Shown piece by piece: positions 5,604-60,596 of a DNA stretch of 64,000 nt. Under the pieces are notes generated by a model. The model was not told where the DNA came from. It did not search any database and saw only the letters and a list, made by a program, of their open reading frames with translations. Both the position numbers and the translations under genes were made by a program. Origin of the DNA: Siphonodentalium dalli (lineage: Eukaryota; Mollusca; Scaphopoda; Gadilida; Siphonodentaliidae); contig CP136062.1 of the NCBI GenBank assembly GCA_032622095.1, forward strand, positions 137,472,351 to 137,536,350. The letters run 5' to 3'. Within the stretch, counting starts at the first letter, position 1, and every line of letters begins with the position of its first letter.

Positions 5604-6497
5604 TAGAGAGTTTTGGTCCCTTTATGACCAATCATTGCAACCAGTAGCATTACAAAGTCAACTAGTACATAGGCCTACCGGTATATAACGAACATAAAAC
5701 AAGAAGAAAAAAACAATACCACGTGGTCGTGCCATAAATAGAAATAAATTATATGTAAAATATTTGTACTAATTACCATTCAGTCAAATGAAGAATATCT
5801 TCTTGGGTAGTCGTCATTTTCATAAGATTATAACAGCAGACACAGAAAAATACATAAATTTTCAGGAAAATGCACAAAACATCAGGATTAGATCTTAAAA
5901 AACGCGCATAGTATGACGCAAACATAAACTGATTTAAGTTTTCTGGCGCCTAAGTTCGAAAACCGCACGCACTTTCAAATATTTTTGAATTTCGCGGGCT
6001 TTAAATTTAGGTTTCGATTTTATTTCGTTCCGACTTTGTTATTCCGGAAAAATGGTTTTGTGCCGTTTGTCATTCCGATTCTAAAACAGGTGATGGAGAT
6101 GTCGCGGATTTGTGTTCGTTGGTGAATTTACAATACATTACCGAAATAAAGTGAGGTTTTCGAAGAACTGGACAAATATACCTATGGTGTAAGAGGTACC
6201 AACAGTTTTTAGTAAAAATATATTTTTTGTAGGAATACAGTTGAGTTCAAAATGGGTGGCAACAATTTCTTGTTTCGTTCCTTCCGTGACCTATGGTCCC
6301 GTGAGGTAGTTCCGCCAATAAAAGAGGGGTTTTGACCAAATTCCAAGCTCCTGTGCTCAGAACTTCAACCGAAAACTTGCAATCGATTTTAATTGTTTCC
6401 TAAAGAATTCCCCATTAATTTCTTATCCCATTTAAACAAATTTAATAGACTTTAACTACTTTTAAACTATGGCGGTGGATAAAAACAATACCCATAA

Positions 6498-6617
6498 AGT
6501 TTGACGAGATACTAGGTTTCGCTCGTATGATTCAGCAAATGGGGAACCTCGTTAAACCTCGGCCCCCATTTGCTGAATCATACTCGCGAAAAAATAAACC
6601 TTATATCTCGTCAAACT
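6498..6617. repeat. Hairpin MITE, ~120 bp
   Basis: AGTTTGACGAGAT and CGTATGATTCAGCAAATGGG at the left are mirrored by CCCATTTGCTGAATCATAC and ATCTCGTCAAACT at the right. The loop is ~20 bp. No TSD is evident. Confidence 0.7.
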
Positions 6618-9600
6618 ATATGGATATTCTATATAAATGTATGTACGGTATACATGTCATTCTGATGACTATCCCCGTAGGGTGCGCTATGTCATCGCTT
6701 TATAAATATCAACATACATGTATGTCCAGGTTTATTATGATTAATATAACATGTATACATGTATAGCATCAGGATGTTGGTCATTTGTGCAATATATTGA
6801 AGGGTTGTGCGTTTATCTTTCAAAGCAAAACATGCACAGGCTTTGAGGGAGAGAACAATGACAAGTGTACTTACAGTGCACTACAACAGCACATATATAC
6901 CCAACCGTTAGACCCAGAGACTTCTATTGGGATATGGCACTAAAACACCTCAATAATAAGTGTATTCCCTCACATATTACATTCATCAATTATTCTGGTG
7001 TCGAATGTCGAGAAATGTTTTTGTCAAAAGACTGACGAAGTGAGTTCACTCTTCCTTTACTAAATACTCATGTTCAGATAATCAGTTTTACAAAGTTTGT
7101 TGTTGAATTTCTTATCTGAACATTTCCCTGCAATCAATGGGACTATACTCCTTCTGTATTCATACTATCTGCTTATTTATCATGAAAACACCTGCAGATG
7201 AATAATATATAATTGCTATGCTATGCTTTATTTCTCTGTAGACATGAATTCACATGCTACGAGAGTATATATTTAAACGGCGCATGTTAATTAAGTGCAA
7301 TATTATACAGATATACAGTGACGGTATGAATGCGTTTAGTCTTTACCATCTGTCATCATTATCATCATCATCATCATCATCAACACCATCATTCGCATAA
7401 TCATCATTATATATATCATTATCACGTCGTCTGCGTTAATGTTTACATATGAGTTAGTCGTTTAAACACTATTTAGTCAATTATTCATCTTGTTCATATA
7501 TGTTATATGGATAATTCATTCGAAAATAACAATAACAGCGACAACAACAACATTATCATCATAGCTATACTAGTATATCATAAAAACAACAGCAATAGCT
7601 TTTATATAACCGATACTGATTTCTGAGATTGAATGCTAACTTTAAGTACAAGCACACATTTCTCAGTTAATCCAATCGACAATATTTTGTTCCAATGCAT
7701 GTATAATTATATAACTGAGGGAGATAATACATTTAGAAAAGAATGTGTTAATATCAACCTGATAAATTCTTGAATGTTTGCATCGGCACCGTTTGGGTGG
7801 AAGTACTACTTAATTTAAAGGTCACCAAAGCGACAAATATAGTTCAGTTAAAGACTCATGTGACGATGTGAACTATCGGCCTATACCGGTATCTAACCGC
7901 CAAGGCACGTCAAGGTTATCAACGTTTTCTGTTTACCGCTCATTTGATCTCGCTACAAGGGTGCCAAGTTACCAATGACAGGATCTGGCTGCATATACCA
8001 GGGTATTCTGTTATAGGGATATGCCCATATGACCAGCATACATGGAGTTTGAACATGTTCACTTTGGGGTGAATCCAGCAATTTTGTGAATTTTGGATAG
8101 TTGACTTTCCTCATTCAATCGACGATCATTCAACAATTAAGTTACTAGACTGGTCGTCAAGAGGGTTAGAACCGGGAGAAATTTGCAATAAAGGTTTCTT
8201 GGTATCATTGTGTGTGGGGAAGTGTTCTGTGTGATTCTGTATATTCAAAATCCGCTAAATGCAAAATTCCCAATTCAACATGGCGTCTATAATGGCACTT
8301 GGTATCGTAAAATACTCATTTGTTTGCGGTAGGTGCACCAAATTCGCAATCAATTGAAGTATACACACCATTGCTTAGTCGTAAACCATACCTGTGGAAT
8401 GTCTGTCAAAAATGACGCCAAAATGGACAAAATGGAATGAAATTGACATTGTGTGCAAAATTGAATAGCTAGTCATACAATAGTCAACACACGTTCGAAT
8501 TATGCGAGGAAGAATGATTGCAGAGTATAAGAAACACTTTTTTATCAGATATACACGAATTCTCACCAATGTATCTCACGAGAGAGCAATCGTAAGCAGA
8601 GTCTCATACAACGGTTAAATCTTGAATTTTGGGCGCCCAGAAACGGAAAAATTATGCAGTTTTATCTCTTCTGTTTATCTTGAACCGTGTGAAATATGTG
8701 TAATTAAACACTTAAACTGGATTTAATAGGGATGTATTGATTATGGGACCTGTTCTGGAAGAAGAAATATATGTACTCAGAGCATTCTCACATTTGAACA
8801 CAATTGTCTACTAAGAAACCGGTTTGGCAGCAGCATGAAAATTATTCTGAAATAAAATGTGCGATGTACAGTCTCTCTGATCTGGTGATATGGGGGGGGG
8901 GGGCTAATCTATGGGAGAGATGAGTGCTTCTTTACAGTATAACAAGCATTGCTACATACGTGTATGGCTTATTCACGGAGAGTGTTGGGCATTATGGAAA
9001 TTAAACTAGTATTACTATAGTATTAATTTATATCGCAATGGTATGGACTTCAGTGTCTGCGTTACATTGAATAATTAATAGTCATCATGCCGACTGAAAC
9101 TGTTGCATGCCCGAAATAAGTATTATGTGTTTTTACTGTGGCCCGCGCCATCCAACGGAATAACGGGTTTAAGTCCACTATGCGCTTAATCCAGAATCAA
9201 ATAAGTCCCAATATGAACCAATGTCAATATTTAGGTCCAATGTGAATCTATCTGCACGAGGATATATTGAAGTAGCATAATCAATATTAGCTCTATATAT
9301 AACAGAATAGGATCTGTCTGCCATGTGCGCACACAGGGGCCGCAGGGTGCTTACGCACAAAGGGGTCGGTGCCTGTTTCAGCTAGTATAGTTATATTTGA
9401 ATTGACATACAAAAACAATTTAACATATTGCGTTTCTGCAGGAGATACATATTTGCCATGGATCTAGCTTATATCACACTGGTACATGTATCCATGGAAT
9501 AACTGGCCACACAGTACACACTGCTATATATTGGGATGATATACTGGTGCACACATCAAAGTCGAATCATCTAGTTTTGCATTCCTCATAACTTTGCCAG

Positions 9601-13406: not shown

Positions 13407-16400
13407 TTATTGGGATAAAGCAGTTTGTCTAAGTATAAAGCTTTCCTTAATGAAATTGCTAATAATCTTAAGTGAGTGAATGTTTTCAGTTGACATGAGC
13501 CAATGAAATGTTTGCTGGTTACTCAGGTTTGAGAAATATGTACACTGATAAACTATTTCTTTATATAGTTGTTTTCTTGAATTCTGATATCTTGAGCATT
13601 CTGTCAAAAAATTATATTCATTTTCAATTTTATTCTCATTGCATACTTTACATAATCGTAAGGACCGGGTGTTTTTTTGTTTTTTTTGTTTATGTCTGTC
13701 CATCTCTATCCTCAGGTTATGAGCACTAATTCTGAGTTGACACATAGCTTTTCTTGACTCATAGTTATCTAGATTTAAATATTCTTTTTTAAATGTGTTT
13801 TTGTAAGTGAAATATGAGTCCAGTTTGCCCTCCCCATTTGTAAGAAATGAGTCACGAATAGAGTGCCATTCTTTCTTGAACATTTTATACATTTGTTTAT
13901 CAGTAATTCTCAGAACTTGCTCGAGTGGGAGATTTAGAATGGCCTGTTCTCTCATTTTTAGGTTTTGTAATATTGAGGTCATGGTAGAATACCATGTGTT
14001 GATGCCCTTGTTTATGACCTAACTGTGTTGCCCGAAAAGCCTCTTGTAATAGGGGGTTGGCATTATGGTGAAGACGATGTAGATATGTAATGAGATATCT
14101 GACTATTTGAAAATACATTGGGAACCTTCCTAGCTCAAATTGAACTCCTATATTGGGGCTTTTTTTGTTTACTCCCAGAATGAATCTACAGAATCTTATA
14201 TGCGATCGGTCAGCAATGTTGTCCTCATATATTGTACTAAAAGGGTTCGCATTTGTACTAGCTCTTTGAACTGCCTTGTAGTTAGGGTTGTAACATCCCC
14301 AGACTTCTACTCCATAGAGTAGAATTGGTTTGACGGTGTGATCGAATAGGTGTAACATGGTTTCAGGAGAGGCTCTAGAATTTGACATTATTTTACTTAA
14401 TTTAAAAGATGCCTTAAGGGACCTGTTATAAATATCCTGCCTACCGTGTGTGAACAGACCGCTTGATTGAAAAATTAGACCTAGATATTTATATTTTTGG
14501 ACACACTCAATTATACAATTGTTGTAAATGAAGTTTTGTTGGAGAAGATGGCCACCTTTGTTAAAAATAATAATTTTTGTCTTAGTTGTGTTAAGAGTAA
14601 GGCAACAATCATTGCAATATTGTTCAAGTAATTGAAGCTTCTGTTGTAAGCCAGTTGCAGTATGTGACATAAGAATAAGATCATCTGCATACATTAGGCA
14701 TTCAATTTCATTTTCAACTAGTTTTACCTTGTCTTTTGATGATGAGAGATATGAAGGTAGGTCATTAACATATAGGTTGAACAGCAATGGGCTTAATGTG
14801 TCCCCTTGTTTCACACCGATATTTGATGCGAAAGAGTTACTAATACATCCATTTACTTTTACAGATAATTCACCCTTTGAATACATGTTTTTTATTATGT
14901 CGTAGAACTTCCCACTGATATTAGATTTTAAGAGTTTTATGAGTAAGCCCTGATGACTAACGGTATCAAAAGCTTTTCTTAAATCCACAAAACAGCAGAA
15001 TAATTTCCCCCCTTTGTCACCCGTGTATTTATCTATGAGACTTTTCAGAATGAACATGTGATATGCTGTTCTGTAATTTTTTCTGAAACCGGCCTGACTG
15101 TCTGATAACATGTCATGTTGATCGAGGTATTTGGTTAACCGTGTGTTCAAAATCTTGTTAAATGCTTTCCCCAGACATGAATTTATAGTTATTCCTCTAT
15201 AATTATTAGGATCTTTGGGGTCACCTTGTTTAAATATTGGTATGATATACCCTTGGGTCCATTCTTTTGGATAAATTCCATTTGAGTATATTAGATTAAA
15301 CAGTTTGTGATATTATTTGAGAAGATATGGTAGACTGACACCTATGATCTCATTTGATATGGAGTCTAACCCAACAGCTTTGTTGCTCTTGAGAGATTTG
15401 AGACTATTTTCAGTCTCCTCCATGTAGATACGAAAGTCGAGTTCTGAAAAAAAAATTCTCTTTCAAGATTTTCCAGGCATTCCGATATTTGTTTATTTCT
15501 GTCAGAGACAGATGGGTTCATTTGATTGAGGTTCTTAAAATAGGATGCCCAACTGTCCAGTTCAATATTGTTTTCCAACCTGGGTTCCTGACTGCCTTCT
15601 CATATTGAAGAGTTTTGAGTAGTTTCCAGTATTCATTAGGTTTATTCTCTCTAAGATTATCGAGCTTCTGTAGGAGAAGCAATTTATATTTCTTTTTTTT
15701 TACTCGGAGTATTTTTTTATACTGTCGGTAGGATTTGAAATAACTATCACGTTTTGCCTTATTGAAGGGATTTGTTGACATGTCGTTGGCCTTATATTGT
15801 AATGTCTTGCGCCTATCTCTCATTTCACCATCAAACCAATTATTTGTGCGTTTCCGATTGTGGTATTTGGAATTTTTGAACTTTAGTGATATGTTGGCTG
15901 CCTGAATTAAAATATTTTCTAGATCTACTGTTGCTTCGCCAATCTGCTCTGCGGAATAAGTTGATTGTTGAAATTTGTATATTTGTTTTTGGATATTCGG
16001 ACAATGGAGTGCATGCTGGGATGCAGATTTGGAAGTGTTTGACCAGCTAAATTTGCCAGGGGCTGGTTTCTGATGTTCGGTTGAATGTGATTTTGATTTG
16101 ATTTTTCTGAATGTTGTAGATATAATACATTTAAGACTGCAATGACAGTCAGACATTGTAGGTTGGAATGGAGAGACCTGGAAATTTAAAATTTGGTTCA
16201 TTAGCTCCATTGAGACTATCATATAATCCACAACACTCACACCGTTCTGCTTAAAGCAAGTGGGACTACCAATGGCGTCTCCAACAATTCTACCATTTAA
16301 TAATATTAAGCCTTGTGAAACACACATGTCTATCAGTTGTTTACCCTGTTTGTCACTGATTGGGTCAGAATTAGTTCTTATATTAATTTGACTTGAATTG

Positions 16401-17062
16401 TCTGTAAGATCAATCATTTGGTGATCATCGTCATTTTCAACAATGTCAACTCTGTTACCAGTTCGAGAGTTCAAGTCTCCACAAATCATAATGTGACCTT
16501 TCTTTGAATAAGTTTTCGTTATGTCCTCCTCTATTGAACTTAATACATCATAATCGAGCCTACTCTCATAATGTAAATTTGCCGGGATGATGTAAGCTAT
16601 GCAAATATATAAATCTTTTGTTAAATTGAAGAAATGTTTATCAAGTTGGAGCCATTGGTAGTCTACACTGGTGTTCTTCAAAAGGTGTACTCCTTTGGCT
16701 ATGCTGGTACCCAGGCCACCAAAGTATCTACCGTTTGAAGAAATATTCCGACATACTGGGAAATACTTGAAACCGTTTACATTAACACTTTCTTCGGGAC
16801 CTACATGTGTTTCAGTTAGAATGATATTGCAATCATGAATATGTTGAAGGAAATATGGATCATTGTACTTTTTATATGATCCTGATGTTAAACCTCCAAC
16901 ATTCCATGATAGGATTTTCAGCTGACGAGTCAGCTTGTTGGAACAATTGTCACCTGCACTAGTAGTCCTGGTTGTATGGTCAGGTTGAGTAGGAACGTTG
17001 ATGTCTCCTATTGTTTTGTGTGAAACCATTGTTTCTACTAGAGTAGCTTTGGTCGTTTTCAT
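13407..17062 (-). pseudogene. LINE ORF2: endonuclease plus reverse transcriptase, frame-broken
   Basis: The first frame block (17062-15518, 514 codons) opens with an APE-type endonuclease. It shows LKILSWNVGGL, the metal-binding E in ILTETH, GDLNSRTG, VVDYMIV and SDCHCSL. The second block (15150-13900, 416 codons, open back to ~15312) is the reverse transcriptase: FVDLRKAFDTVSH (motif A), GVKQGDTLSPLLFNLY (motif B), and YADDLILMS with the catalytic Asp pair (motif C). The last block (13982-13407) ends in CKVC..NFLTEC, a CCHC-like motif whose His is Asn. Lesions: a frameshift near 15550-15580, another at an A9 run near 15448, an in-frame TAA at 15313-15315, and a frameshift near 14010-14020. 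It would copy LINE RNA at a nicked genomic site; this copy cannot. Confidence 0.93.
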
Positions 17063-51190: not shown

Positions 51191-51445
51191 CACGTATATA
51201 CATGTATATATAATACATCAGCGGTTCTGACAACCAATATAAAAGGAAATACGTAGTATGTTGAAACAGACGATACTATTGATGGATCATAACTCGAGTG
51301 CTTGAATTGTTATGATCATATCCCTGCGAGATTAGTTAACGGATACCGATGGCCCAGAAGTAGTACGTGAGGCTCGTTAGACCCACATCTAAAAATAGAT
51401 TTTTTGGGGTTAAAATTGTTTGTACTAAAATATTCCCACAAAAAA

Positions 51446-51560
51446 AAACTTCCAAAACTTCAAAAATTTCAAAAATTTCAAAAATTTCAAAAACTTCAAA
51501 AATTTCAAAAATTTCAAAAACTTCAAAAGCTTCAAAAATTTCAAAAAACTTCAAAAATTT
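51446..51560. repeat. Left-arm tandem of TTCAAAAACTTCAAAAATTT
   Basis: About ten 9-12-base units. The plus-strand frame gives a Lys-Thr-Ser-Lys-Ile-Ser repeat with no independent evidence of being protein. Mirror at 60346-60504, where units and length differ. Confidence 0.85.
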
Positions 51561-51749
51561 CAATATAATGAAGATGACGAGCAACCAATTTTCGACTGGC
51601 CTGAGGCATTACGTTATGAAATGAATAACGACAGCGGATCAGAATGTGATCATACACGCAATAATAGAAGTTACTTTGATGTTGTTGTTATGAATAGAAT
51701 TTTATCAACCTTACGTATTAACAGTTTATTGAGTTATGCATACATATAG
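51561..51749 (+). CDS. Conserved 63-codon open frame, left arm (unknown)
   Basis: The frame reads through EDDEQPIFDWPEALRYE, then SGSECDHTRNNRSYF, and ends at TAG 51747-51749. It has ordinary amino-acid composition, unlike the low-complexity frames around it. It stays open at the same length in the opposite arm, with Glu changed to Gly once. There is no clear ATG start; it may be the 3' end of a gene whose 5' part lies in the A-rich repeat, or the leftover tail of a lost gene. I do not recognise the family. Confidence 0.35.
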   Translation, partial: QYNEDDEQPIFDWPEALRYEMNNDSGSECDHTRNNRSYFDVVVMNRILSTLRINSLLSYAYI

Positions 51750-52279
51750 TACGTCACTTGGACATTTTATCAGTTTATCACGTGATCACTAAATGTGCCA
51801 ATCGGGTATCCACCGATGCCTGCAATGTATTATTTATAATAATTGGACTCATTGATCTCACGTAAATAATACTCTTAGTTGTTCCAATAAAATAGTTATC
51901 AAATTCGATCACCAATAGATTTGACTGTGGAATATAATGACCTTTAACTTATTTATCGATCTAAAGGGACACTCATTATGAATGAATGTTAACAATACAA
52001 GCGCACGAATGAAGAGCGTTGAACATATACGAAATTACTACACGAATGAATTGAACCTTGAAATTTATATTTCACATCTTACCAACAACAGCTACAGACA
52101 TAGTCATAGTGTTATACTGTCTTGCATGTACACACGCTATGACATCATTAAAGGCGGACAATCCACTCACGGTGTGACAACAGATACAGACATAGGCATA
52201 GTGTTATACAGTCTTCTATGTACCCACATTAAATGTGACACCATTAAAGTACATTGGATGTTAGGTCTATGACTCTTGA

Positions 52280-52745
52280 GTATGCACCAATCAATGAGCA
52301 AATGAGCAAACAAAAATGAGCAAATGAGCAAAAAAATTAGCAAATGAGCAAGAAAATGAGCAAATGAGCAAGAAAATGAGCAATAAAAATGAGCAAATGA
52401 GCAAGAAAATGAGCAAATGAGCAAGAAAATGAGCAAATGAGCAATAAAAATGAGCAAATGAGCAAAAATATGAGCAAATGAGCCAAAAAATGAGCAAATG
52501 AGCAATAAAATGAGCAAAATGAGCAAGAAAATGAGCAAGAAAATGAGCAAATGAGCAAGAAAATGAGCAAATGAGCAAGAAAATTAGCAAATAAGCAATA
52601 AAAATGAGCAAATGAGCAAATAAATGAGCAAATGAGCAAAAAAATGAGCAAATGAGCAAAAAAAATGAGCAAATGAGCAAGAAAATGAGCAAGAAAATGA
52701 GCAATATAAATGAGCAAATGAGCAAGAGGTGAGCAAGTGAGCAAG
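52280..52745. repeat. GAGCAAAT minisatellite, left arm
   Basis: About 45 alternating GAGCAAAT and GAGCAAGAAAAT-type units. The long Leu/Ile/Phe/Cys/Ser open frames on the minus strand are by-products of this repeat. The mirror array at 59264-59621 is ~100 bases shorter, and a short remnant is in the central hinge. Confidence 0.95.
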
Positions 52746-53106
52746 TGATCATGTCGATAATAAAAAGCAGCATTTTATAGATCGAAAAGAAATTTTGTCA
52801 GAATATTGTCATCAACTCAATCAAGATCTCAACGAAACGCATTATTGACATCGATAACTATCATGGTGCATTGGCATTCATGGCCAGACAAATACAATAC
52901 AACCTACCTATCCAAATGTCAATGCAATTATGAGTGATTTCAATATGAGCACTCTATTATATAGATATGTGTAACCTGGTGACATGATGAAATCGATTGT
53001 GATACAAAGCTAAAGTACCGCCCCATAGGGCAGATACATAGCTAAAGTACCGCTCATAGAGCAGAAGCTAAAATACCGCTCTAACGTTGTCTGAATCTAC
53101 AGCCCC

Positions 53107-53228
53107 TTCATTATTATATCCGTGTTTGGTCAGTTTGACCATTTTCTTCATGATCATGGTATGTATGGGTGATGTTTTCATTCGATGCTGGTATTCTATT
53201 AATCGTTCGTAACTTTTGAGAAAGAGGA
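53107..53228 (-). pseudogene. Truncated C-terminal copy of the C2H2 gene, left arm
   Basis: On the minus strand the frame encodes FLKSYERLIEYQHRMKTS, then IMKKMVKLTKHGYNNE, before diverging. This matches residues ~150-190 of the full C2H2 protein at 55150-55785 with a few changes. The zinc finger and acidic part are missing; the 5' side is replaced by an AAC/GTT microsatellite (53228-53263). It is a partial duplication. Confidence 0.8.
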
Positions 53229-53354
53229 ACAACAACAATAACAACAACAACAACAACAACAACCGCCGCCGTAGCGTGACGAGCAAAATGTGATGTTTAC
53301 ACACTTAAGCTCTGGATAAACAATACATATCGCATCTGCAGCAGTCTACTTCAT

Positions 53355-54125
53355 TGTGAATTAAGTCACTCTGGGTTAGTTGACTACATGCATGCACACA
53401 CAACACAGCCGAGGGTTATTGTAATTTAATAAAAATGTCACACCGAGGTACGCCATCTTGATTGCTTTCAAAAATAGTGCAACTTACCTGTTGGTAATTA
53501 CTCATACGAATGAAGAGCGTTTAACTGATACGAAATTACTACACGAATGAACTGAATCTTGACATTTATATTTCACATCTTTCTTAAATGTTCCAACACA
53601 TACAGACATAGACATAGTGTTATACAGTCTTATATGTACACACGCTACGACACCATTAAAGGTGGACAATACACTCACGATGTGACAACATATACAGACA
53701 TAGGCATAGTGTTATACAGTATTCTATGTACCAACGCTATGACATAATTAAAGGGGGGTAATGCACGCACGGTGTGGAATGTTAAAGTGACACGAGGTAA
53801 GGGACGTAATGTAATATTGGTGTGTGAATATTAAAGGAGCACAATGCGCTCTAAAGGGACACACGGCACTCATTATGAATGAATGTTAAAGAAACACAAT
53901 ACACACGCAGTGGGTTAAAGTTAAAAAGACACAGAACAATATTTAAACTTAAAATTTTAGGGCTCTTAATGTACCATTTATGTATCGTTTCTCGCTCTAC
54001 AATCTCCCATCCCCACTTATAGATATATAACGAAGACGAGAATAACATGTTGATGTTTTCATGTTTAAGCTCAGGTATGACTCAAATTGTATCAATGGTA
54101 CATATATGTGCATCTTATCACGTGG
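53355..54125 (-). repeat. Left-arm internal duplicate, outer unit
   Basis: CAGCCGAGGGTTATTGTAATT through GATATATAACGAAGACGAGA recurs ~1.09 kb inward at 54440-55135. A third, shorter relative of its centre (CATAGTGTTATACAGTCTTC, ~90-bp tandem) lies at 52000-52260. Non-coding. Confidence 0.85.
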
Positions 54126-54439
54126 CGATCAAAATGTGATGTTTACACACTTAAGCTCTGAATAAACTATACATATCGCATCTGAATGAATTTCTGGAAT
54201 GTAGGTTAGCCATGCGTTCACAGACACTGGAATACAATAGTCACTGTCTATAGAGAAGTATGACCTTGTACGTAAATAATAAAGCGCGTTATCGAGTCTA
54301 TTCATTCTCAATAATAGATGGTCATTTAGTCAAAACAGTATGGTGTCATTTATCCCCCACATATTGGAGCCACACATTACTTGATGTTCACTTATACAGT
54401 TGTATGTCAATTATCAGTGGAGTGTCAGTGTACTTCATT

Positions 54440-55135
54440 GTGAATTAAATCACTCTGGGTTATTTGACTATAAACTATAAACCTGTTACACCACAGCCGA
54501 GGGTTATTGTAATTTAATGAAAATGTCACACCGATGTACGCCATCTTGATTGCTTTCAAAAATAGTGCAACTTACCTGTTGGTAATTACTCATACGAATG
54601 AAGAGCGTTTAACTGATACGAAATTACTACACGAATAAACTGAGTCTTGACATTTATATTTCACATCTTTCTTAAATGTTCCAACACATACAGACATAGA
54701 CATAGTGTTATACAGTCTTATATGTACACACGCTACGACACCATTAAAGGTGGGCGTTACACTCACGATGTGACAACATATACAGACATAGGCATAGTGT
54801 TATACAGTCTTCTATGTACCAACGCTATGACATAATTAAAGGGGGATAATGCACGCACGGTTTGGAATGTTAAAGTGACACGAGGTGAGGGACGTTATGT
54901 AATATTGGTGTGTGAATATTAAAGGAGCACAATGCGCTCTAAAGGGACACAAGACACTCATTATGAATGAATGTTAACAATACACACGCAGTGGGTGAAA
55001 GTTAAAAAGACACAGAACAATATTTAAACTTCAAATTTTAGGGCTCTTAATGTACCATTTATGTATCGGTTCTCGCTCTACAATCCCCCTCCCCACTTAT
55101 AGATATATAACGAAGACGAGAATAACATGTTGATG
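54440..55135 (-). repeat. Left-arm internal duplicate, inner unit
   Basis: Partner of 53355-54125. It ends just after the stop codon of the C2H2 gene, so the duplicated unit includes that gene's 3' flank. Mirrored at 56855-57560. Confidence 0.85.
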
Positions 55136-55149
55136 AAGTTTATTGAAAT

Positions 55150-55785
55150 TTAATCATTGTCAGAAGCTTCGACCGTTAGATTTATTTCTAGGAGTTTCTT
55201 GAATTTTCTCATCGCTTCATCCGCAGCCCATTCATTATTATATCCGTGTTTGGTCAGTTTGACCATTTTCTTCATGATAGCGTTATGTATGCGGGATGTT
55301 TTCAATCGATGCTGGTATTCTATCAATCGTCTGTAACTTTTGAGAAAGAGAGAAAACTCTGTGTCGACGCGTTCTAGCTGAGCTTTTCCCTCAGCCTCTT
55401 CTCCCGACACGCCCTCTTCTTCCATCAGTTGATCAAACTTATCAGACAATGCTTTCACATCATCGATGACGCGTTTCATCATACTTTTGAATGTGTCCAT
55501 CTCATTGACGCATCGCGCAGCTTTCTTACGGCCGAATACCGATCTACTACCGGCGACAGTATCATCCTCTGAATCTGAAGAGGACGAAGCGGTTCTAGAT
55601 TCTGATGAAGGTGAACGGGGAATGATATCAGATTCGGACGAATCTAGAACCGTTTCTCGGTCATCTGTATCTTTCCCGAAAAAATCTCCATTCGTTCCTG
55701 ACATAATTCCGTGTTTAATCTGTTTATGTCTTTGTAGATTGTAGTTCGTCGATAAAATATTTCCGCATAAATGGCACCCAGGCAT
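55150..55785 (-). CDS. C2H2 zinc-finger protein of the palindromic element, left copy (211 aa)
   Basis: The ATG is at 55785 and the stop at 55150-55152. Residues 4-25 form a single C2H2 finger: CHLCGNILSTNYNLQRHKQ then IKH (Cys-x2-Cys, then His-x4-His). Residues ~38-85 are acidic and Ser-rich (DDRETVLDSSESD, SSSSDSEDD). Residues ~95-140 are a helical, charged region (MKRVIDDVKALSDKFDQLME). Residues 150-200 form a basic helical C-terminus (SYRRLIEYQHRLKTSRIHNA, MVKLTKHGYNNE, MRKFKKLLEI). I recall similar C2H2-plus-basic-tail proteins near Maverick-like elements in invertebrates, but cannot confirm it. A DNA- or genome-binding role is inference. It is transcribed outward from the hinge, divergent from its twin. 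Confidence 0.75.
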   Translation of the reverse strand: MPGCHLCGNILSTNYNLQRHKQIKHGIMSGTNGDFFGKDTDDRETVLDSSESDIIPRSPSSESRTASSSSDSEDDTVAGSRSVFGRKKAARCVNEMDTFKSMMKRVIDDVKALSDKFDQLMEEEGVSGEEAEGKAQLERVDTEFSLFLKSYRRLIEYQHRLKTSRIHNAIMKKMVKLTKHGYNNEWAADEAMRKFKKLLEINLTVEASDND

Positions 55786-56221
55786 TATCGCGAATTATTG
55801 GAATAACGATCACTCTTATATTAACGAAAAGATCGAAAAAGTTCTGTTAAAAAAAAATGGCGCGCGCGGCCCCTTCCCCTTTTTTGGTTCGGATTTTTTT
55901 TGTATGGGGGATCGTACGTATCAAAAGGAAAAGTGCATTCGAGGAGAGGAGAAAAGAGTAAATGAGCAAGAAAAAAGAGCAAATGATCAAGTGGGGGAGT
56001 GGGACAAAGAGCAAATGAGCAACTGAGCACAGGAGCAAGAGTGGAGAACACCAAAACGACCTTAACGTCATCGTTAGCATGTATGAATATAATGTTATCA
56101 AGCGTACATTTTTTTCCAAAAAAGGGGAAGGGGCCGCGCGCGCGCGCCATTTTTTTTTAACAGAACTTTTTCGATCTTTTCGTTAATATAAGAGTGATCG
56201 TTATTCCAATAATTCGCGATA
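55786..56221. promoter_or_regulatory. Divergent central region between the two C2H2 genes
   Basis: The two ATGs (55785 minus and 56222 plus) face apart across 436 bases. The outer ~100 bases on each side are mirror images and contain ATCGAAAAAGTTCTGTT and a GGCGCGCGCGGCCCC block. The unpaired core is 55888-56115. Any promoter must be in the mirrored part or be bidirectional. I see no clear TATA box at the usual spacing. Confidence 0.45.
55888..56115. other. Asymmetric hinge of the palindrome, 228 bp
   Basis: This is the only sequence of the element without a mirror copy. It contains GAGTAAATGAGCAAG, GAGCAAATGATCAAG and GAGCAAATGAGCAACTGAGC, relatives of the arm minisatellite, plus unrelated sequence (TTAACGTCATCGTTAGCATG). 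It is the expected place of the turn-around in a snap-back genome. Confidence 0.75.
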
Positions 56222-56847
56222 ATGCCTGGGTGCCATTTATGCGGAAATATTTTATCGACGAACTACAATCTACAAAGACATAAACAGATTAAACACGGAA
56301 TTATGTCAGGAACGAATGGAGATTTTTTCGGGAAAGATACAGATGACCGAGAAACGGTTCTAGATTCGTCCGAATCTGATATCATTCCCCGTTCACCTTC
56401 ATCAGAATCTAGAACCACTTCGTCCTCTTCAGATTCAGAGGATGATACTGTCGCCGGTAGTAGATCGGTATTCGGCCGTAAGAAAGCTGCGCGATGCGTC
56501 AATGAGATGGACACATTCAAAAGTATGACGAAACGCGTCATCGATGATGTGAAAGCATTGTCTGATAAGTTTGATCAACTGATGGAAGAAGAGGGCGTGT
56601 CGGGAGAAGAGGCTGAGGGAAAAGCTCAGCTAGAACGCGTCGACACAGAGTTTTCTCTCTTTCTCAAAAGTTACAGACGATTGATAGAATACCAGCATCG
56701 ATTGAAAACATCCCGCATACATAACGCTATCATGAAGAAAATGGTCAAACTGACCAAACACGGATATGGGCTGCGGATGAAGCGATGAGAAAATTCAAGA
56801 AACTCCTAGAAATAAATCTAACGGTCGAAGCTTCTGACAATGATTAA
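56222..56847 (+). pseudogene. C2H2 zinc-finger gene, right copy, frameshifted
   Basis: It is the inverse twin of 55150-55785. It starts at ATG 56222 and is almost identical through KMVKLTKHGY (Ala-to-Thr and Met-to-Thr changes noted). Ten bases present in the left copy are missing at ~56768, so the frame ends early at 56788 after 188 codons, losing the last helical segment. The old stop (TAA) is still visible at 56845-56847. The finger and acidic region are intact, so a shortened protein might still be made. Confidence 0.8.
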
Positions 56848-56854
56848 ATTTCAA

Positions 56855-57560
56855 TAAACTTCATCAACATGTTATTCTCGTCTTCGTTATATATCTATAA
56901 GTGGGGAGGGGGATTGTAGAGCGAGAAACGATACATAAATGGTACATTAAGAGCCCTAAAATTTGAAGTTTAAATATTGTTCTGTGTCTTTTTAACTTTC
57001 ACACACTGCGTGTGTATTGTTAACATTCATTCATAATGAGTGTCTTGTGTCCCTTTAGAGCGCATTGTGCTCCTTTAATATTCACACACCAATATTACAT
57101 TACGTCCCTTACCTCGTGTCACTTTAACATTCCAAACCGTGCGTGCATTATCCCCCTTTAATTATGTCATAGCGTTGGTACATAGAAGACTGTATAACAC
57201 TATGCCTATGTCTGTATATGTTGTCACATCGTGAGTGTAACGCCCACCTTTAATGGTGTCGTAGCGTGTGTACATATAAGACTGTATAACACTATGTCTA
57301 TGTCTGTATGTGTTGGAACATTTAAGAAAGATGTGAAATATAAATGTCAAGACTCAGTTTATTCGTGTAGTAATTTCGTATCAGTTAAACGCTCTTCATT
57401 CGTATGAGTAATTACCAACAGGTAAGTTGCACTATTTTTGAAAGCAATCAAGATGGCGTACCTCGGTGTGACATTTTCATTAAATTACAATAACCCTCGG
57501 CTGTGGTGTAACAGGTTTATAGTTTATAGTCAAATAACCCAGAGTGATTTAATTCACAAT
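56855..57560 (+). repeat. Right-arm internal duplicate, inner unit
   Basis: Mirror of 54440-55135. It contains ATCAACATGTTATTCTCGTC and the ~90-bp CATAGTGTTATACAGTC tandem in inverse orientation. Confidence 0.85.
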
Positions 57561-57934
57561 GAAGTACACTGACACTCCACTGATAATTGACATACAACTG
57601 TATAAGTGAACATCAAGTAATGTGTGGCTCCAATATGTGGGGGATAAATGACACCATACTGTTTTGACTAAATGACCATCTATTATTGAGAATGAATAGA
57701 CTCGATAACGCGCTTTATTATTTACGTACAAGGTCATACTTCTCTATAGACAGTGACTATTGTATTCCAGTGTCTGTGAACGCATGGCTAACCTACATTC
57801 CAGAAATTCATTCAGATGCGATATGTATAGTTTATTCAGAGCTTAAGTGTGTAAACATCACATTTTGATCGCCACGTGATAAGATGCACATATATGTACC
57901 ATTGATACAATTTGAGTCATACCTGAGCTTAAAC

Positions 57935-58640
57935 ATGAAAACATCAACATGTTATTCTCGTCTTCGTTATATATCTATAAGTGGGGATGGGAGATTGTAG
58001 AGCGAGAAACGATACATAAATGGTACATTAAGAGCCCTAAAATTTGAAGTTTAAATATTGTTCTGTGTCTTTTTAACTTTCACCCACTGCGTGTGTATTG
58101 TGTTTCTTTAACATTCATTCATAATGAGTGCCGTGTGTCCCTTTAGAGCGCATTGTGCTCCTTTAATATTCACACACCAATATTACATAACGTCCCTTAC
58201 CTCGTGTCACTTTAACATTCCACACCGTGCGTGCATTACCCCCCTTTAATTATGTCATAGCGTTGGTACATAGAATACTGTATAACACTATGCCTATGTC
58301 TGTATATGTTGTCACATCGTGAGTGTATTGTCCACCTTTAATGGTGTCGTAGCGTGTGTACATATAAGACTGTATAACACTATGTCTATGTCTGTATGTC
58401 TTGGAACATTTAAGAAAGATGTGAAATATAAATGTCAAGACTCAGTTCATTCGTGTAGTAATTTCGTATCAGTTAAACGCTCTTCATTCGTAGGAGTAAT
58501 TACCAACAGGTAAGTTGCACTATTTTTTGAAAGCAATCAAGATGGCGTACCTCGTTGTGACATTTTCATTAAATTACAATAACCCTCGGCTGTGTTGTGT
58601 GTGCATGCATGTAGTCAACTAACCCAGAGTGACTTAATTC
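57935..58640 (+). repeat. Right-arm internal duplicate, outer unit
   Basis: Mirror of 53355-54060. Both units share CATAATGAGTGCCGTGTGTC / GTGTCTTGTGTC-type variants, so they are not identical. Confidence 0.85.
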
Positions 58641-58768
58641 ACTATGAAGTAGACTGCTGCAGATGCGATATGTATTGTTTATCCAGAGCTTAAGTGTGTA
58701 AACATCACATTTTGCTCGTCACGCTACGGCGGCGGTTGTTGTTGTTGTTGTTGTTGTTATTGTTGTTG

Positions 58769-58893
58769 TTCCTCTTTCTCAAAAGTTACGAACGATTAAT
58801 AGAATACCAGCATCGAATGAAAACATCACCCATACATAACATGATCATGAAGAAAATGGTCAAACTGACCAAACACGGATATAATAATGAAGG
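58769..58893 (+). pseudogene. Truncated C-terminal copy of the C2H2 gene, right arm
   Basis: Mirror of 53107-53228: FLKSYERLIEYQHRMKTS then IMKKMVKLTKHGYNNE. One difference (Asn for Thr before MIMKK) separates it from the left copy. A GTT microsatellite (58735-58768) precedes it. Its presence in both arms shows it existed before the arms were doubled. Confidence 0.8.
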
Positions 58894-59263
58894 GGCTGTA
58901 GATTCAGACAACGTTAGAGCGGTATTTTAGCTTCTGCTCTATGAGCGGTACTTTAGCTATGTATCTGCCCTATGGGGCGGTACTTTAGCTTTGTATCACA
59001 ATCGATTTCATCATGTCACCAGGTTACACATATCTATATAATAGAGTGCTCATATTGAAATCACTCATAATTGCATTGACATTTGGATAGGTAGGTTGTA
59101 TTGTAGACACACGAATTAAATTTGTCTGGCCATGAATGCCAATGCACCATGATAGTTATCGATGTCAATAATGCGTTTCGTTGAGATCTTGATTGAGTTG
59201 ATGACAATATTCTGACAAAATTTCTTTTCGATCTATAAAATGCTGCTTTTTATTATCGACATG

Positions 59264-59621
59264 ATCACTTGCTCACTTGCTCACCTCTTGCTCATTTGCT
59301 CATTTGTATTGCTCATTTTCTTGCTCATTTTGCTCATTTTCTTGCTCATTTGCTCATTTTCTTGCTCATTTTCTTGCTCATTTGCTCATTTTTTTGCTCA
59401 TTTGCTCATTTTTTTGCTCATTTGCTCATTTTTATTGCTCATTTGCTCATTTTCTTGCTCATTTGCTCATTTTCTTGCTCATTTGCTCATTTTCTTGCTC
59501 ATTTGCTCATTTTTATTGCTCATTTGCTCATTTTCTTGCTCATTTGCTCATTTTCTTGCTCATTTGCTCATTTGCTAATTTTTTTGCTCATTTGCTCATT
59601 TTTTTTGCTCATTTGCTCATT
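59264..59621. repeat. GAGCAAAT minisatellite, right arm
   Basis: Inverse of 52280-52745 (TTGCTCATTTGCTCATTTTC units), ~100 bases shorter. Open frames through it are artefacts of the repeat. Confidence 0.95.
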
Positions 59622-60155
59622 GATTGGTGCATACTCAAGAGTCATAGACCTAACATCCAATGTACTTTAATGGTGTCATAGCGTGGGTACATAGAAGACT
59701 GTATAACACTATGCCTATGTCTGTATCTGTTGTCACACCGTGAGTGGATTGTCCGCCTTTAATGATGTCATAGCGTGTGTACATGCAAGACAGTATAACA
59801 CTATGATTATGTCTGTAGCTGTTGTTGGTAAGATGTGAAATATAAATTTCAAGGTTCAATTCATTCGTGTAGTAATATATGTTCAACGCTCTTCATTCGT
59901 GCGCTTGTATTGTTAACATTCATTCATAATGAGTGTCCCTTTAGATCGATAAATAAGTTAAAGGTCATTATATTCCACAGTCAAATCTATTGGTGATCGA
60001 ATTTGATAACTATTTTATTGGAACAACTAAGAGTATTATTTACGTGAGATCAATGAGTCCAATTATTATAAATAATACATTGCATGCATCGGTGGATACC
60101 CGATTGGCACATTTAGTGATCACGTGATAAACTGATAAAATGTCCAAGTGACGTA

Positions 60156-60344
60156 CTATATGTATGCATAACTCAATAAACTGTTAATACGTAAGGTTGA
60201 TAAAATTCTATTCATAACAACAACATCAAAGTAACTTCTATTATTGCGTGTATGATCACATTCTGATCCGCTGTCGTTATTCATTCCATAACGTAATGCC
60301 TCAGGCCAGTCGAAAATTGGTTGCTCGTCATCTTCATTATATTG
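60156..60344 (-). CDS. Conserved 63-codon open frame, right arm (unknown)
   Basis: Mirror of 51561-51749, same length and same stop (TAG at 60158-60156 on the minus strand), EDDEQPIFDWPEALRYG. As in the left arm, there is no clear start codon. Confidence 0.35.
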   Translation of the reverse strand, partial: QYNEDDEQPIFDWPEALRYGMNNDSGSECDHTRNNRSYFDVVVMNRILSTLRINSLLSYAYI

Positions 60345-60345
60345 A

Positions 60346-60504
60346 AATTTTTGAAGTTTTTGGAAATTTTGGAAATTTTGAAAGTTTTTGAAATTTTAAA
60401 AGTTTTTGAAATTTGTGAAATATTTGAAATTTGTGAAATTTTTGAAATTTTTGAAGTTTTTGAAATTTTTGAAGTTTTTGAAATTTTTGAAGTTTTGGAA
60501 GTTT
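60346..60504. repeat. Right-arm A/T-rich tandem (TTTTTGAAATTTTTGAAG)
   Basis: Mirror of 51446-51560, with more units and more single-base changes, including TGTGAAATATTTGAAATT units not seen in the left arm. Confidence 0.85.
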
Positions 60505-60596
60505 TTTTTTTGGGAATATTTTAGTACAAACAATTTTAACCCCAAAAAATCTATTTTTAGATGTGGGTCTAACGAGCCTCACGTACTACTCCCAGA

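Follow-up and report, generated by a model that had tools for sequence, protein, structure and literature searches.

A near-perfect palindrome as the probable transposing unit of a Polinton-derived, satellite-like family in Siphonodentalium dalli

We analysed a 64,000-nucleotide stretch of the genome of the scaphopod Siphonodentalium dalli (contig CP136062.1, positions 137,472,351 to 137,536,350; hereafter the window), which contains a palindromic element of 9,232 bp at positions 51359..60590. This element is probably a non-autonomous, satellite-like derivative of a Polinton (Maverick), belonging to a large family in which the transposing unit is itself a near-perfect palindrome. The explanation starts from features observed directly: the tips, the target-site duplications (TSDs), a hinge common to many copies, a scar of Polinton sequence, a terminal inverted repeat (TIR) shared by a sister palindrome and a full-length Polinton, the palindromes' own open reading frames (ORFs), and arms that were alike at insertion. 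Long near-perfect palindromes are generally unstable; in this genome, a thriving mobile family seems to inherit just that form.

Re-alignment of the window bore out the architecture described by an earlier sequence-only reading, with arms of ~4.5 kb, a hinge of 228 bp, identical ends and a CCCAGA duplication. The palindrome of the window is real, and its main parts are as follows:

51353..51358, + strand: left TSD, CCCAGA, directly outside the left end
51359..55887, + strand: left arm, 4,529 bp
51359..51376, + strand: left tip, AGTAGTACGTGAGGCTCG (18 bases), with the (AGT)2 end motif
55888..56115, no strand: hinge, 228 bp, itself non-palindromic
56116..60590, - strand: right arm, 4,475 bp; identity with the left arm 99.0% (aligned columns)
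60573..60590, - strand: right tip, the identical 18 bases read inwards
60591..60596, + strand: right TSD, CCCAGA, directly outside the right end

The arm-to-arm alignment comprises 4,410 columns, with 4,366 matches and 44 mismatches (99.0% identity), and 184 gap bases besides; by blastn, with gaps counted, identity is 95.1%. The outermost 80 bases of the two arms show no difference. Either end reads AGTAGT, giving the 5'-AG ends with (AGT)2 that characterize Polintons/Mavericks, and the 6-bp CCCAGA duplication also has the length typical of this group. The (AGT)2 motif is one of two end motifs named for vertebrate Mavericks in an excerpt of PMC8097293.

Genome searches covered the host assembly (2.23 Gb, 9 contigs) and scored the best candidates only, so that all counts are lower bounds. 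The sequence-only reading had staked its interpretation on further copies with the same tip and with TSDs, and both turned up. A tip pattern with few open positions has 40 exact matches, including the window's two (reversed control, 0). The 20 loci fetched represent 18 tip-bearing places besides the window, 12 of which carry inverted arms 1 kb or longer (L031, L034-L039, L040/41, L042/43, L046, L049 and L050). Exact 6-bp TSDs flank 13 of 16 two-tipped elements (the window, L031-L038, L040/41, L042/43, L046, L049, L050, L051/52 and the full-length L054/55), with 13 different sequences; the outer right tip was taken for L037, and L039, both of whose tips lie on one strand, was excluded. At L035 and at L054/55, 5 of 6 bases agree. 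Equal structure with other 6-bp TSDs elsewhere in the assembly argues against both chance and a local fault of assembly.

The family includes several palindrome classes with differing centres. That of L031 is long (about 1 kb) and non-palindromic, and those of L050, L035 and L051/52 are CGG-rich inverted repeats. Local tandem duplications occur within L032 and L043, and an inverted copy of tip-adjacent bases is found at L037 and L039. A block resembling a long interspersed nuclear element (LINE) lies inside the palindromic element of L040 (L040:3109-6600), with a Pfam endonuclease domain at 5689-6600 and reverse-transcriptase-like ORFs adjoining. At C1:159746518-159783982, six tips follow one another on one strand at ~5.4 kb spacing, then comes a facing tip, with a divergent pair of the gene P0001 (described below) in the last unit; this looks like head-to-tail half-elements next to a palindrome.

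The hinge ties many of these copies together. With a 233-base hinge query and an identity threshold of 90%, at least 31 places match, the window among them (best 40 of 212 candidates scored), spread over different chromosomes. The 610-base centre of the window element, comprising the hinge and inner arms, matches L033 and L046-L049 at 97.3-98.5% (best piece); at L046-L049, one arm is shortened next to the hinge. Three additional hinge copies were fetched, and each lies in the middle of a palindrome. One hinge at so many places implies that the palindrome moves ready-made and is not folded anew, and the earlier idea of a one-off folded copy gives way to an inherited form.

The link to Polintons comes largely from a younger end type, AGAAGAATAGGGGTCTCG, with 31 exact genome matches (control, 0) that form 11 facing pairs. 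Its AGAAGA end falls outside the two vertebrate-Maverick motifs in the excerpt of PMC8097293. Two of the 11 pairs span about 16.5 kb. The element at C2:144267904, read as three pieces with about 1.1 kb of element outside them, encodes PolB (PF03175, E 1.3e-45), an rve integrase with a chromodomain, an adenovirus-protease-like ORF just below cut-off, its own 225-aa ATPase and an F54H12.2-like protein, and has a TIR of 1,062 bp. At L053:4190-4744 (+), a TATA-binding-protein (TBP) gene of the full-length Polinton (PF00352, E 3.1e-32) adjoins a PC4-like gene (E 9.6e-15), which suggests a full-length Polinton with its own transcription factors. The second ~16.5-kb pair encloses a PolB match. Among 69 scored PolB loci, 68 have no stop in the match, and the open frames range from 803 to 1,330 aa, usually near 952; the loci appear to represent a young population of Polintons in the host genome.

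Younger ends also bound palindromes. The one at C1:230257072-230266111 has two intact ATPase genes and arms that are 99.4% alike; these arms match the TIR of the full-length element at 94% over about 960 bp. The pair at C9:67570558 encloses a divergent ATPase pair. Of five younger-end pairs sampled centrally, four (L056-L059) are palindromic and L060 has an N run (about 378 to 2883), which may be an assembly gap, between inverted flanks. In the window element itself, Polinton sequence is present as a deletion scar in each arm:

52791..52901, no strand: Polinton deletion scar of the left arm, composed of a 70-bp piece (96%) and a 41-bp piece (85%), offsets 1433-1543 of the palindromic element
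59110..59222, no strand: Polinton deletion scar of the right arm, composed of a 43-bp piece (91%) and a 70-bp piece (96%), offsets 7752-7864 of the palindromic element

The two scar pieces lie ~1.6 kb apart in the full-length element, one near the ATPase and the other at the integrase tail, and 0-5 bases apart in the listed palindromes containing both; the stretch missing at the scar contains most of the integrase. What the family has in common with a full-length Polinton from its own genome thus comprises the TIR of the sister palindrome and, in the window, the scar pieces and the tip region. Kinship of the tip, compared here with Polinton sequence and standing at about 75% over some 200 bp, points to Polintons. 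The Polinton affinity proposed from the window alone holds on the grounds of the sister TIR and the scars in both arms, and the full-length relative it foresaw exists in so far as a PolB/integrase element shares its TIR with a sister palindrome.

We searched 31 palindrome-side records (the window element and 30 other loci) for Polinton genes. In these records the PolB of L053 has 0 tblastn matches, the adenovirus-like protease 0, and the TBP and PC4 of the full-length element 0. The RVE integrase core is absent from the window element, where only short matches to the C-terminal part are left. The F54H12.2-like protein (421 aa), a possible capsid protein, has 0 matches in the window element and about 20 matching residues in nine loci.

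The palindromes carry genes of their own. In the window these are two copies of P0001:

55150..55785, - strand: P0001, intact 211-aa ORF in the left arm, with a C2H2-like finger (Pfam, below cut-off) and a C-terminal region
56222..56788, + strand: P0001 copy in the right arm, ORF of 188 aa with the frame broken beyond

P0001 is an orphan, with 0 of 192 candidates at E 0.001 among 5.8 billion proteins, and has no match in the pieces read of the full-length element. Sister palindromes encode a 566-567-aa protein with zinc fingers either side of an A32-like ATPase; the ATPase domain (PF04665) exceeds the curated cut-off in L050 (E 2.3e-7) and is slightly under it in L034. P0001 aligns to residues 393-557 of this protein (98.9% probability, E 3.2e-17, single comparison), and therefore looks like its C-terminal finger and helical part alone. 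The packaging ATPase is absent from the window element and present in sister palindromes. Its predicted fold (mean predicted local distance difference test score 69, predicted template modelling (TM) score 0.43) has the packaging NTPase B204 as best PDB match (E 3.9e-7, TM 0.61 by target); against viral models, A32-like packaging ATPases come out best, with adenovirus IVa2 lower down. Relatives of the zinc-finger ATPase were found in bivalves, and none was confirmed in viral and genome-contig collections. Between the zinc-finger ATPase and the ATPase encoded by the full-length element, identity is 32%. A PC4-like ORF occurs in L031 (weak, E 0.07), L037 (weak, E 0.02) and L039 (by similarity). 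The term defective, applied by the sequence-only reading, is too weak for an element with its own genes, P0001 here and the zinc-finger ATPase in its sisters.

Gene orientation is in line with the palindromic form. Among 77 scored ATPase matches (best of 5,482 candidates), neighbours less than 10 kb apart are divergent in 17 of 17 pairs. For P0001 (150 scored matches, best of 3,778), 41 of 42 pairs within 3 kb are divergent; within 10 kb, 54 pairs comprise 45 divergent, 4 + 3 same-strand and 2 convergent, the non-divergent ones including the tandem array on C1. By contrast, the 69 scored PolB loci contain two pairs of neighbours no more than 20 kb apart, each pair on a single strand, and 0 divergent pairs. 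Ratios of non-synonymous to synonymous change (dN/dS) for P0001 are 0.37-0.65 between subfamilies, 0.18 and 0.45 in the window type (few changes) and 1.4-3.1, where defined, in the L031 type; such ratios lend weak support to selection on the palindrome genes.

To place in time the likeness of the arms, we compared arms within and between elements in 36 element pairs with four alignable arms each, the pairs being non-independent. At 908 sites the pattern joins arms within an element, and at 11 and 15 sites it joins arms across elements; independent evolution of the arms since a single palindrome birth is rejected on these 908 versus 26 sites. Pairs formed among the window, L046 and L049, which have one hinge in common, number three and give 11 : 0 : 0; only this small subset separates homogenization from separate origins. 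Private changes were then counted as arm-specific or shared by both arms. The window has 12 arm-specific and 0 shared changes over four stretches (4 : 0 in an overlapping fifth), L046 has 5 : 0, L049 8 : 2 and L036 21 : 1; in the ATPase class, where comparators are fewer, shared changes are more frequent, with counts of 23 : 10 (L050), 12 : 11 (L034) and 1 : 20 (L051/52). Because private changes in the window class are mostly arm-specific and arms agree in comparisons between elements, the arms were alike at insertion and diverged later, in keeping with the earlier proposal that the element integrated already as a palindrome. It follows that homogenization takes place mainly in the mobile phase.

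Further features of the arms are as follows:

51444..51563, + strand: 9-base tandem repeat AAAAATTTC, tip-proximal, left arm
52293..52744, + strand: 20-base tandem repeat AATGAGCAAATGAGCAAAAA, left arm
55857..55886, + strand: G+C-rich inner end of the left arm, adjoining the hinge, with predicted pairing to the right inner end
56116..56151, - strand: G+C-rich inner end of the right arm, adjoining the hinge
59268..59621, - strand: 20-base tandem repeat, right arm
60342..60506, - strand: 9-base tandem repeat, tip-proximal, right arm

The predicted single-strand DNA fold of the hinge region is far stronger than that of shuffled sequence (z -7.6), with the inner arm ends paired. Elsewhere in the window (positions 1-51000, low-complexity sequence masked), the longest non-self-symmetric inverted pair is only 310 bp. 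Outside the palindrome, at 13900-17062 (-), lie LINE-like ORFs (RVT_1, E 2.1e-28; Exo_endo_phos_2, E 8.2e-6).

We propose the following cycle. A resident Polinton would provide, in trans, the PolB and integrase that work on the tips, as the ends and TSDs suggest. Protein-primed strand displacement would release a self-complementary strand, which could fold on itself to give a hairpin of half length with the hinge at its closed end. Mismatch repair or copying within the hairpin would render the arms identical in every cycle; copying round the hinge would rebuild the full palindrome, and the helper integrase would insert it with a 6-bp TSD. The sisters' zinc-finger ATPase and the window's P0001 may aid packaging of the palindromes or interfere with packaging of the helper. 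A bolder version, which we advance tentatively and consider less likely than not, is a lineage of integrated palindromic satellite viruses with hairpin genomes, arm-against-arm proofreading and their own DNA-binding packaging ATPase (in the window, its C-terminal finger part) that captures or poisons helper capsids.

The arms could instead have grown as in Foldback/Galileo elements, the terminal repeats of a Polinton derivative being lengthened by recombination and kept alike by chromosomal gene conversion, with no hairpin. The tandem repeats in the arms, the local duplications in L032 and L043 and the non-palindromic L031 centre would fit, as would the private changes found in both arms of some copies (11 shared versus 12 arm-specific in L034; 10 versus 23 in L050). 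The window element, with 12 arm-specific private changes and none shared, shows no noticeable conversion after insertion, and arms agree in the comparisons between elements. Repair within a self-annealed hairpin would account for the arm pattern better than chromosomal conversion, and we regard fold-back-type growth as unlikely. Less likely still is that every palindrome was folded afresh from a one-armed Polinton genome right before integration, as the sequence-only reading taken literally would have it. Such repeated snap-back would also make arms alike when inserted, and L048 has the hinge with a single arm within the stretch examined; the several classes with different centres imply that palindromes arose or were remodelled more than once. 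Against this stands a single hinge at at least 31 places, mostly central in palindromes among the copies examined, and for the window class the common hinge is already contrary to it. A chromosomal inverted duplication or an assembly artefact (missed adapters, chimeric reads) could be read into the inverted host flank of L032 and the inverted tip-adjacent bases of L037 and L039, but is highly improbable given the exact outer TSDs of 13 different sequences, private changes that differ between arms and a hinge common to different chromosomes. We also considered a multipartite genome, with palindromes as segments of a split Polinton, since the ATPase, P0001 and the PC4-like ORF occur in different palindromes; it was set aside because PolB, protease and integrase core are found in 0 of 31 palindrome-side records and a full-length element exists.

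Several observations weigh against a palindromic Polinton satellite. The tip region of the window matches the full-length element at only about 75% over some 200 bp, and the exact-tip matches examined included no full-length Polinton ending in exactly AGTAGTACG, the kind of relative that the earlier reading had expected. Inverted arms are under 1 kb at L032, L033 and L048, and L044, L045 and L047 are without a second arm of at least 1 kb within the stretch examined. The hinge occurs with one arm at L047 and L048; L047 looks truncated, because ~57 bases of the other arm remain, and L048 has none within the stretch examined. The 31 hinge places may not all be separate insertions. L045 (C8:908491) and L046 (C4:106703522) have a 1,500-bp outer flank in common at 99.4% and are a single insertion duplicated along with the surrounding chromosomal stretch. 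L032 has no TSD, and its host flanks are inverted (158 bp at 98%), which looks like the outcome of a chromosomal inversion or inverted duplication. In the arm comparison, pairs with L038 give a blurred pattern of 25 : 9 : 12 and contribute 21 of the 26 cross-element sites, and between palindrome classes separate palindrome origins would give an equal arm pattern. ATPase copies have dN/dS of 1.2-1.5 and so give no sign of recent purifying selection. The hairpin step is one that we infer.

If the palindromic-satellite reading is true, it describes a satellite system living within an animal genome. It makes Polinton replication and integration testable, because the arms would bear the mark of any hairpin intermediate, and likewise Polinton DNA packaging, as parasites that retain packaging-type genes would be indirect evidence for particles.

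The window element and its sisters resemble Polintons/Mavericks in their (AGT)2 ends (as named in the excerpt of PMC8097293), 6-bp TSDs, long terminal repeats and a same-genome full-length relative with PolB, rve integrase and ATPase. They differ in being palindromic almost throughout, in that PolB, integrase core and protease were not found in them, and in having genes of their own, for the zinc-finger ATPase or P0001, which are frequently present in each arm. In the open-licence literature searched, no palindromic Polinton is described, which does not establish its absence from print. Foldback/Galileo elements likewise have very long inverted repeats and internal tandem repeats and are non-autonomous, but they make 9- or 7-bp TSDs and have no known Polinton kinship, whereas the palindromes here have 6-bp TSDs and such kinship. 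Bidnaviruses are comparable in a split genome linked to a Polinton-type PolB, and differ in that they are not known to have palindromic whole segments or an integrated family. Like virophages and the packaging-redirecting phage satellites of the phage-inducible chromosomal island type, a small element would here exploit a larger virus-like helper, with sisters that encode a packaging-type ATPase; unlike them, it is palindromic, no capsid gene was recognized in it, and its packaging is hypothetical. The snap-back or self-complementary defective genomes of adenovirus and adeno-associated virus share the mirror-image genome, a possible half-length hairpin and the need for a helper. They are replication by-products, whereas the palindromes described here form a lineage with an inherited hinge at at least 31 chromosomal places.

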